A stretch of DNA of 64,000 nt from an uncultured Bacteroidia bacterium (GTDB lineage: Bacteria; Bacteroidota; Bacteroidia; Bacteroidales; UBA932). The notes beneath the pieces were generated by a model, which ran no database searches, had not been told where the DNA came from, and was given only the letters and a program-made list of their open reading frames with translations. Of the stretch, positions 14,440-20,279 are shown one piece after another; position 1 is the stretch's first letter; every line of letters begins with the position of its first letter. The stretch is taken from assembly GCA_902801885.1 (NCBI GenBank), contig CADCJX010000008.1, positions 1 through 64,000 on the forward strand, in the 5' to 3' direction. A program made the translations under genes and the position numbers.

Positions 14440-14464
14440 ATATTTGTTCGTATCGAACAAATAT
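14440..14464. promoter_or_regulatory. 25-base palindrome overlapping the promoter of the redox operon
   Basis: ATATTTGTTCG (14440-14450) and CGAACAAATAT (14454-14464) are perfect inverted copies separated by TAT, 12 bases before the start codon at 14428. The minus-strand -7 box TATATTTG (14458-14465) lies inside the upstream arm, and a TTG sits 16 bases further up. A repressor bound here would block polymerase, so this is a strong operator candidate for the polyferredoxin and aldo/keto reductase pair. Confidence 0.65.
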
Positions 14465-14476
14465 AGCTAAAAATGA

Positions 14477-15133
14477 TTAATCAATGATAATCAATACCAA
14501 TGATTTGTGAGAAAACTCCAGTTTTACCGCATCTTTTCCGGTCCTGTTGAGCGTTGCCTGCCACCAATTGTCGAACACGACTCCGTCGGTCGGCCAGACG
14601 AGGCCATCAGATTTAAGCTTCAGGGAATTGTCCGGGCTGAAAATGGACATCCTCCTGCCTTTGCCAAGGAAGAGCTCGCAGGAATCGGTGACGGCGAAGG
14701 CTGTGGAATAGTCGGAAACCATGTCGATGGAGGGCTGGACACCCATGCGCGCATATTCCATCAGCAATCCCAGATTCCCGATCGTGTGATCCTCTCTTTT
14801 GCCGGTAGCGGCGATGAAATGGATGGTGTCCACTTCGGGATGACTCTCGAGTACGTAGTGCAGTGCCTTGGTCTGGTCGTTGTCATCCTGCTCTTCGACC
14901 TTGACAAGAAGGTGTGAATATTCCTTGGCGAGTGCTGGCGTCATCGAATCCATGTCGCCAACTACCGCGTCGGGCTCCCTGACGGTTTCTTTGAATATCT
15001 TCCCACGGTTCCTGAGGAATGCCTTGAGGGCATTGCCGTCGCAACAGACGATCACGTCTGCCCGGTGGATGAGTTCCCGTGGATATTCCTTCCTGGGGAA
15101 TTCGCCGCCTCCTATGATCACCGCAGTGCTCAT
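14477..15133 (-). CDS. thiN: thiamine diphosphokinase
   Basis: 218 residues, the normal length for thiamine pyrophosphokinase, which makes thiamine diphosphate from thiamine and ATP in the cytosol. Visible motifs are the N-terminal VIIGGGEFP, CDGNALK, the phosphate/metal-binding VVGDMDS and QDDNDQTKAL, and TGKREDHTIGNLGLL at the active site. The C-terminal beta-sandwich ends FSHKSLVLIIID. Its ATG overlaps the stop of the lptG::fmt gene (ATGA), so it is translationally linked and ends an operon with alaS and the fusion gene. Confidence 0.9.
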   Translation of the reverse strand: MSTAVIIGGGEFPRKEYPRELIHRADVIVCCDGNALKAFLRNRGKIFKETVREPDAVVGDMDSMTPALAKEYSHLLVKVEEQDDNDQTKALHYVLESHPEVDTIHFIAATGKREDHTIGNLGLLMEYARMGVQPSIDMVSDYSTAFAVTDSCELFLGKGRRMSIFSPDNSLKLKSDGLVWPTDGVVFDNWWQATLNRTGKDAVKLEFSHKSLVLIIID

Positions 15134-17571
15134 GCCACGCGGGTCTTGGCGATTTCGGCCTTGGAGGTGCCGGGCGTCGTGGTGTAGGATTCGGGGTCAC
15201 GGAAGCCTAAGAGGAAGGCTCCGATGTCCATCCGCTTCTTTCCGGCTATCTGGACCTCTTTCAAGGAAATCGCCCCGTCTTCCGTCGTTATCCACATGTA
15301 CGTCTTCCCATCGGATATGATATGTCCGCTCTGGTGTGAAGGGTGTGCCGATTCGGACGCCTCGATTCGCTCGGCGGAGAAGATCTTGAGCTGGAGGGGA
15401 GTGGAGCCGTCGCGGACTAGCTCCGTGAAGGCTGCAGGATAAGGACTGAGTCCGCGGATGAGGTTGTAGACCTGCCTTGTGGAGTCGTTCCAGTCTATAT
15501 GGCAGAGCTCACGGGTGAGCTTCGGAGCAGGCTTGAGGACTTCAGATCCCTGGATAAAGCTCCTCTGGAGCCTCGTGTCCACATTCTTCTCAATGAGTCC
15601 CTGGGCAGTCTGGACAACCATCTCTGCCCCGATCTCCATGAGTTTGTCATGAACATCTCCGGCAGTGTCGGTCTCGTCGACTGTGATGTCCTGGCGGAGG
15701 ATGATGCCTCCGGTGTCGATGTCCTTGTCTATCATGAAGGTGGTAGCACCTGTTCTGGTCTCACCGTTGATCACGGCCCAGTTTATGGGGGCAGCTCCAC
15801 GGTATTGTGGCAGCAAGGCCGCGTGGAGATTGAAGGTGCCCAGCCTGGGCATGCTCCAGACTTCCTGAGGCAGCATCCTGAAAGCTACTACCACGAACAT
15901 GTCTGCCTTGAATGTACTCAACTGGCTGAGGAACTCAGGGTCCTTGAGCTTGACTGGCTGAAGGATGGGGATGCCACGTTCTGCAGCGAACTTCTTGACA
16001 GCGCTTTCATTGACTTTCTGTCCACGTCCGCTTGGTTTGTCTGCTACAGTGACGACACCAACTACGTTGTAGCCATTGTCGAGCAAAGCCTTGAGGGAAG
16101 CGACCGCGAACTCGGGAGTTCCCATGAAGACGATCCTGGTCTTCTTGAAGAATCCGGCGATCTTGCTGCGGAATCTTCTCCACCAATTCTTGATAGTGTC
16201 CATGTTTGATAGATCCTGGTCGTGTGCTGCCCTTGAGGTCAGGTATACTCCTATTGGCATCAAGACCATTGCCGAACCGAAAGCTCCGACCCATGCGCTG
16301 ACGCTTCCGTCTCTTGCCAGTTTAACTCCTGTGATGTCCACAATCCAATAGAGTAGGAAGAACAGTGCAGCTACGATGGCTGAAACACCGAGTCCTCCCT
16401 TGCGGATCAGGGCACCAAGTGGGGCACCGATAAAGAACATGATAAGGCAGGCGATGGCCTGGCCATAGCGTCTGAGGAACTCCAGAAGAGTCCATCTCAG
16501 GCGGACCGTGTAGTCGAATGAACCGAATTCGTAGTTCTGGAGATTGCCCTGTACCTGCTCGGCAGTGTTGGCAGCCCTCTCAAGAGCGAAAGCTTTCATC
16601 CTATCGTCCTTGAACTGGAGATAATCCGGATCTTCGAAATTCCTTGTGATGCCGGATGGAACGGTGTCGAGCTGACTGTTCTGAGAGAAGAGGTAGGAAG
16701 CTGCCGTGTACATCAGTTGGGATGCCTTGGTGCTGTCCCTGACTAGTCTCAGGGTGTCCTTGTCTTCGCGGAGCCTCCAAAGCGGCAAGGCCTTGACCTG
16801 GTCACCGTACCTTGCGCTGTCAGACTTCTGGAAAGCATAATTCTCAAGGGCTACCACCATCTCCTGCTTCGTGAAATCTATCTTCTGAAGCTGTAGGGAG
16901 GTGTCCTTGTAGGCTTTGTCGTTGGTTTCCTGATAGTTGGTCCCGTTGTACATCTTGATCGTCAGGTAGGACTTGTCCTTGGACATTCGAATCATGGCGG
17001 AATCGGCCAAGGTAAGCCTCGTGTTGCCTTTCCCGTGATGGTCATACAGCATGACATCGTTCATCATGCCGTCCGGAGAAGTCGATCCTACCCTGAGGAC
17101 ATAGCCTTCTACTCCGTCATAGAAGACTCCGTCAGGGATCTTGATCTCGTTCTTTGTCCTTTTGATGTCGTCCCTGAGAGTGAATATTTCATTGAATGCT
17201 ACGGGGACCAGTTCATTGATGACGAAATAGGTACCTACGCTGATCAGTGTCGAAGCCACCATCAGCGGAGTCATGATCCTGAGAACGGAGACTCCTGCTG
17301 CCTTCAGTGCAATAAGCTCATTGTTCTCACCCATGCTGCCGACGGTCATCATCGATGCAAGCAGGGTGGCAAGCGGAAGGGCGAGGGGAAGCACGGTGCA
17401 GCTGCCCCAGAAAAGGAATTCGACTATAATCTTGAAATCCAGGCCTTTCCCGACAAGTTCGTCGATATAGACCCATAGGAACTGCATCACCAGGATGAAG
17501 ATGACTACAAGTAGGATCATGAAGAATGGTCCTATGAACGAAGTCAATATGAATCTGTCAAGTCTCTTCAT
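15130..17571 (-). CDS. fusion of LptG-type LPS export permease with methionyl-tRNA formyltransferase
   Basis: One 813-residue frame without a stop. Residues 1-455 are a YjgP/YjgQ (LptF/LptG) permease: helices at about 8-32, 52-76, 98-120 and three more at 365-445 flanking a periplasmic beta-jellyroll of about 240 residues. A basic stretch (NWWRRFRSKIAGFFKK, 462-477) leads straight into TRIVFMGTPEFAV, the N-terminus of Fmt, which runs to the end with FNLHAALLPQYRGAAPINW (catalytic Asn and His) and MIDKDIDTGG (catalytic Asp). LptG extrudes lipopolysaccharide to the Lpt bridge; Fmt formylates initiator Met-tRNA. The permease C-terminus faces the cytosol, so a tethered Fmt is topologically possible. 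An internal ATG at 16201-16203 (Met457) could also yield a separate Fmt. I checked the junction codons and found no break. Confidence 0.85.
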   Translation of the reverse strand: MKRLDRFILTSFIGPFFMILLVVIFILVMQFLWVYIDELVGKGLDFKIIVEFLFWGSCTVLPLALPLATLLASMMTVGSMGENNELIALKAAGVSVLRIMTPLMVASTLISVGTYFVINELVPVAFNEIFTLRDDIKRTKNEIKIPDGVFYDGVEGYVLRVGSTSPDGMMNDVMLYDHHGKGNTRLTLADSAMIRMSKDKSYLTIKMYNGTNYQETNDKAYKDTSLQLQKIDFTKQEMVVALENYAFQKSDSARYGDQVKALPLWRLREDKDTLRLVRDSTKASQLMYTAASYLFSQNSQLDTVPSGITRNFEDPDYLQFKDDRMKAFALERAANTAEQVQGNLQNYEFGSFDYTVRLRWTLLEFLRRYGQAIACLIMFFIGAPLGALIRKGGLGVSAIVAALFFLLYWIVDITGVKLARDGSVSAWVGAFGSAMVLMPIGVYLTSRAAHDQDLSNMDTIKNWWRRFRSKIAGFFKKTRIVFMGTPEFAVASLKALLDNGYNVVGVVTVADKPSGRGQKVNESAVKKFAAERGIPILQPVKLKDPEFLSQLSTFKADMFVVVAFRMLPQEVWSMPRLGTFNLHAALLPQYRGAAPINWAVINGETRTGATTFMIDKDIDTGGIILRQDITVDETDTAGDVHDKLMEIGAEMVVQTAQGLIEKNVDTRLQRSFIQGSEVLKPAPKLTRELCHIDWNDSTRQVYNLIRGLSPYPAAFTELVRDGSTPLQLKIFSAERIEASESAHPSHQSGHIISDGKTYMWITTEDGAISLKEVQIAGKKRMDIGAFLLGFRDPESYTTTPGTSKAEIAKTRVA

Positions 17572-17592: not shown

Positions 17593-20211
<2,619 letters not shown>

Positions 20212-20239: not shown

Positions 20240-20247
20240 CAAAATTA
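20240..20247 (-). promoter_or_regulatory. -7 promoter box for alaS operon
   Basis: The minus strand reads TAATTTTG, a TAnnTTTG match 29 bases before the alaS ATG. A second match, TAAATTTG, lies at 20251-20258; I cannot tell which is used. Confidence 0.45.
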
Positions 20248-20279
20248 TAACAAATTTAGCGATTTATAGCAAAAAAGGG

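Follow-up and report, generated by a model that had tools for sequence, protein, structure and literature searches.

A putative membrane-tethered methionyl-tRNA formyltransferase: in-frame fusion with an LptF/LptG-family permease in a family of Bacteroidales

Architecture of the fused gene

The window, a stretch of 64,000 nucleotides, carries a minus-strand reading frame (15130..17571; 813 codons plus stop, with no internal stop) in which Pfam and NCBIfam matches identify an LptF/LptG-family permease joined through a short linker to methionyl-tRNA formyltransferase (Fmt). Three near-full domains within one frame of such length exclude chance, and the first-pass annotation had correctly placed both proteins in this frame. 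The architecture is a real and new combination of two known families, conserved and recurrent among relatives that make up a large set of gut bacteria. Its best reading, which we consider likely, is a single chain that tethers the cell's only Fmt to the cytosolic face of the lipopolysaccharide (LPS) exporter. A membrane-tethered Fmt had been anticipated in the first-pass annotation and is the product to be expected from a single frame. From the sequence we infer translation as one chain, placement on the cytosolic side, activity of both halves and a membrane location.

The permease part (residues 1–446; 16234..17571, minus strand) matches the Pfam family LptF_LptG over residues 6–446 at 218.9 bits, above the cut-off of 27.9. 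Against the NCBIfam models it scores 145 bits with LptF (TIGR04407) and 103.7 bits with LptG (TIGR04408), while the second permease of the genome, a protein of 366 residues, scores 168 bits with LptG and 139 bits with LptF; all four values fall below the curated cut-offs of 230 (LptF) and 240 (LptG), so that neither protein reaches equivalog level. These two genes are the only PF03739 loci in the genome. Because the fused permease lies nearer the LptF model and the other permease nearer the LptG model, LptF appears to be the likelier name, although unproven, in place of the LptG first assigned. By our own judgement of the hydrophobicity data, the permease part contains six hydrophobic clusters, three on either side of a large loop, an arrangement that together with the cationic linker would fit a cytosolic C-terminus. 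Among the aligned fused proteins E85 is invariant and E82 nearly so; either may correspond to the conserved coupling-helix glutamate that contacts LptB, E84/E88 in the E. coli proteins (PMC5082905).

The Fmt part (residues 479–792; 15196..16137, minus strand) matches the TIGR00460 (fmt) equivalog over its full length at 250.1 bits, against a cut-off of 201.5, and comprises both the N-terminal transferase domain (Formyl_trans_N, 479–654) and the C-terminal tRNA-binding domain (Formyl_trans_C, 684–790). Residues N581, H583 and D619, which we take to be the catalytic Asn, His and Asp, are invariant in 92/92 aligned fused proteins. The initial claim that every key residue of Fmt is retained thus holds for these three and fails at the serine of the NLHASLLP stretch, presumably the motif named SLLP. 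By alignment this serine is alanine (A585; codon at 15817..15819, minus strand) in the window protein, as in 56 of the 62 fused loci of its genus, giving ALLP. The serine of SLLP is kept in 43/43 split relatives, and the fused loci of other genera carry SLLP, or SILP in three loci of genus g15. Because the fused loci of other genera keep the serine, the change to alanine arose after fusion in one lineage and is no general mark of fusion. ALLP is a motif variant and alone provides no argument against Fmt function. Length-variable insertions also occur in the C-terminal domain of Fmt, at about residues 725–745, in a number of species within the genus, among them L007 to L011.

Two PF00551 loci are found in the genome, namely the fused gene and a 201-residue frame that is, judged by its size, probably PurN. 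Given that the genome also encodes two peptide deformylases, the formylation cycle looks intact.

Distribution and origins of the fusion

In the window's genus (101 genomes searched), all 93 assembled junctions are fused. Specifically, in 92 of them the match reads through the junction uninterrupted by a stop, the TAG noted for G080 and G065 being the terminal one, and the remaining case, G025 (locus L062), has an open junction to Fmt together with a frameshift within the permease, which may be an assembly error or a real disruption. The other eight genomes (G004, G010, G014, G046, G047, G062, G082 and G093) lack an assembled junction, the genes being absent or truncated at contig ends; none of the eight showed a separate fmt gene.

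An assembly error or a strain-specific loss of a stop codon is rejected by comparison across the genus and other genera, and we regard either origin as extremely improbable. Such an origin could draw on the fact that the relatives are all draft or metagenome assemblies and on the frameshift in G025, but it would have to explain why another 92 assembled junctions of the genus, and junctions in other genera, are open in the same way. It is also opposed by named relatives from separate studies: the best 80 of 175 such loci are fused in 80/80 cases, a count that is biased since the search used the linker pattern and favours fused genes. These named loci derive from Bacteroidales metagenome assemblies, two of them bearing the name Candidatus Cryptobacteroides. 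The first-pass annotation had suggested looking for the same fusion in related genomes, where it was indeed found; the recent neutral stop loss and the sequencing error at the junction that it had also considered do not agree with this pattern. The arrangement that it had named as counterevidence, two separate genes with an intact stop, is confined to other genera within the family, with no case among the assembled junctions of the window's genus.

A search of the family (199 genomes, 25 genera) reveals the fusion in 79/199 genomes, and in 60/180 outside the window's genus; across all searches, base-level inspection covered 91 distinct fused loci. The fused counts are 19/19 in g1, 18/18 in g15, 18/18 in g16, 17/18 in g6 (one genome being without a match), 3/3 in g17, 1/1 in g3 and 1/1 in g5, and two genera are mixed, g2 (1/3) and g23 (1/3). 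Besides the window's genus, six genera are therefore fused wherever readable. In g4, g10, g11, g12, g14, g18, g19, g22 and g25 every locus read is split, fmt following the permease gene immediately or overlapping it. In g7 and g8, represented by one genome each, ribBA lies between the permease gene and fmt and overlaps the end of the permease gene (L166 2583-3809 and L167 1620-2852). Because ribBA intervenes in these two genera while the genes are adjacent or overlapping in the other split genera, the comparison suggests a path from separate through adjacent and overlapping to fused genes.

Among the matches listed from wider searches, the fusion is confined to the window's own family: G000, G122 and G105 carry it in the search across the order (247 genomes from 113 families), and G000 alone in that across the phylum (394 genomes). 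Fmt matches within long frames of 648 residues (G774:C3:6163-7092) and 522 residues (G656:C6:98526-99443) were recorded in other families in the phylum search; they may represent further Fmt fusions, or simply open frames that extend far upstream.

The number of origins was addressed with a tree of the permease and Fmt parts without the linker, comprising 91 rows, 49 of them fused and 42 split. This was a rapid tree with SH-aLRT as its sole support measure; 20 of the 62 loci of the genus were retained, and L002, L062, L112, L114 and L169 were omitted. On it, the fused and split states need at least five changes, of which well-supported branches alone force three, and the fused g23 sequence adjoins split g23 sequences. 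Placing all fused rows in one clade, as a single origin would require, is rejected (AU p 3e-56). A core of g1, g17, g3, g5, g15 and g16 is compatible with a single origin (AU p 0.445) and the same core with g6 as one clade is rejected (p 0.0004), both values being softer in that the core groups were chosen after the tree was seen. The fusion thus appears to have several origins within the family. The direction would be gain rather than loss, with two genes appearing to be the older state, because the outgroups are split.

The linker and possible release of free Fmt

The linker (residues 447–478; 16138..16233, minus strand) is cationic and amphipathic, with a net charge of +7 and a hydrophobic moment of 0.61 over residues 460–477. 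Cationic tails are also present on unfused permeases, and the charge of the linker is therefore older than the fusion. Comparison of fused loci in 30 disjoint pairs gives pN/pS values of 0.203 (permease), 0.248 (linker) and 0.189 (Fmt), with a rise towards Fmt through the linker thirds (0.20, 0.28 and 0.31); these ratios are rough, many pairs lying near synonymous saturation. This pattern indicates that the linker is read in frame and constrained as protein, under purifying selection almost as strong as that on the domains. Linker length is 35–37 residues in 62/62 loci of the genus and 46–47 residues in g15 and g16, and the unfused permease tails in g4 range from 29 to 85 residues. A special geometry signalled by the fixed length finds no support in a control: of 21 windows with similar identity taken from the same proteins, 12 vary as little in length as the linker, which in this respect therefore behaves as an ordinary folded segment and nothing more.

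A free Fmt might be released from this region. Met457 (16201..16203, minus strand), located 26 codons upstream of the Met in MGTPEF, had been put forward as an internal start that could still yield free Fmt. As a general conserved start it is rejected, with ATG at that place in only 14/62 fused loci of the genus. The wider idea of internal initiation fares better in part, as a start codon (ATG, GTG or TTG) is present 5–20 codons before the Fmt core in 44/62 loci of the genus, ATG in 33 of them, and internal initiation is therefore possible in many species. The commonest residue at position -11 is Met, encoded by ATG in 26/62 loci. Internal starts used in single species, and a free Fmt in many species of the genus, are accordingly possible on the codons present.

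A stronger form of this proposal holds that the working Fmt is a free protein produced by internal initiation or by proteolysis in the linker, with tethering merely incidental. Besides the frequent start codons, it would be in keeping with the split relatives, in which fmt starts with ATG, GTG or TTG a few codons before the same core. We nevertheless judge it unlikely, because the position of the start is unconserved, frame and protein-level constraint are kept across the whole linker, and 10/91 fused loci have a linker without any ATG, GTG or TTG. In all 16 fused genomes tested, including the ten without a linker start, only one Fmt exceeds the cut-off and it is always the fused copy; five of those ten genomes are less than 90% complete, and a second Fmt could be missed there. 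On the simplest interpretation, the fused chain itself serves as the Fmt.

Retention, proposed function and relation to known systems

The fused gene lies in a tight array, in which alaS (17593..20211, minus strand) is located 21 nt upstream and the gene for thiamine pyrophosphokinase (TPK; 14477..15133, minus strand) follows downstream, its first 4 nt shared with the end of the fused gene. These neighbours provide control junctions. The alaS–permease junction is fused in 0/203 readable cases, although the gap is 30 nt or less in 142/170 fused loci, and the fmt–TPK junction is fused in 0/141 readable cases, although the genes overlap in 63/113 fused loci. The comparison covers 216 loci; the 80 named ones among them may overlap with genomes already included, the TPK starts are extrapolations from the alignment, and G025 counts as split owing to its frameshift. 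Close packing alone has therefore not fused these genes, which favours something particular to the permease–Fmt pair, whether benefit or a mere tolerance owed to both ends lying, as predicted, in the cytosol. A promoter-like site before alaS (20244-20272) and a terminator-like hairpin after TPK (14440-14464) were also recorded, such matches being no commoner than in shuffled sequence.

Why the fusion has been kept could be explained by a neutral ratchet, in which overlapping genes were fused by a chance stop loss and frame change, the product was tolerated, and reversal would need a stop and a start together. This account concerns retention only and is compatible with function as a tethered chain; we regard it as evenly poised between right and wrong. 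It accords with the occurrence of fused clades among relatives with adjacent or overlapping genes, with the absence of any reversal within the fused genera sampled, with the predicted meeting of both termini in the cytosol and with a linker conservation that is merely ordinary. It is opposed by the several separate origins of the same fusion and by the unfused neighbour junctions, these controls being few and not equivalent, as alaS would sit before a membrane helix. The evidence would fit either benefit or mere tolerance.

Under the tethered-chain reading, the product would be a bifunctional membrane protein whose N-terminal half contributes one of the LPS exporter's two transmembrane subunits, this LptF-like half pairing with the second permease of 366 residues. 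Its C-terminal end would lie in the cytosol, where the short cationic, probably helical linker would bear the cell's only Fmt. Tethered in this manner, Fmt would formylate Met-tRNAi for all translation, and formylation would take place at the cytosolic surface of the inner membrane, in a constant ratio to the exporter. The source of the gene would be an adjacent or overlapping co-transcribed pair, fused more than once in the family and kept under purifying selection. Counted against this reading are the start codons in 44/62 loci, the cationic tails of unfused permeases, the ordinary constancy of linker length, the incomplete genomes and the change from SLLP to ALLP.

In the usual view, Fmt is a free cytosolic enzyme and LptF/LptG form a dedicated lipid exporter. 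A more far-reaching and improbable proposal is that initiator-tRNA formylation has been moved to the inner membrane beside the LPS exporter so that a single component serves both initiation capacity and outer-membrane growth; formylated starter tRNA would then be made in proportion to, or under the control of, assembled exporters, and the conformational cycle of the permease may modulate Fmt. A conserved and recurrent fusion of this type would offer a natural example of initiator-tRNA formylation at a membrane, and it makes testable whether the cellular site of formylation matters and whether formylation is matched to envelope growth. It also bears on annotation pipelines, in which such a protein may be named by one half only or split, and it presents an adjacent pair with recurrent fusion beside operon neighbours that lie just as close and have stayed separate. 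Literature searches for Fmt/LptG fusions or for Fmt at membranes, judged by titles and opening parts of abstracts, gave no description of this fusion, and the main text of PMC4921024 mentions neither formyltransferase nor LptG.

Compared with the LptF/LptG permeases of the LptB2FG exporter, the fused permease shares the Pfam domain, has PDB sequence matches to the LptF chain 6mit_F and the LptG chains 5x5y_G and 8frl_G, and carries a glutamate-bearing GENNEL-type stretch at the expected place of the coupling helix. It differs in bearing an enzyme at its C-terminus and in falling below both NCBIfam cut-offs, the latter being equally true of the unfused second permease. The Fmt half resembles known Fmt proteins in its full-length TIGR00460 match, and the Fmt structures 4iqf, 1fmt and 3tqq are its best PDB matches by alignment. 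Unlike them, it lacks a start of its own, is joined to a polytopic membrane protein and, in most of the window's genus, has alanine for the SLLP serine. ArnA is likewise a formyltransferase fusion linked to LPS, and the Fmt half also matches ArnA structures. However, ArnA formylates a sugar nucleotide and its fusion partner is a dehydrogenase, and the fused protein exceeds the cut-off of the Fmt model (250.1 over 201.5 bits), whereas with the ArnA model it reaches 151.5 bits against a cut-off of 777.
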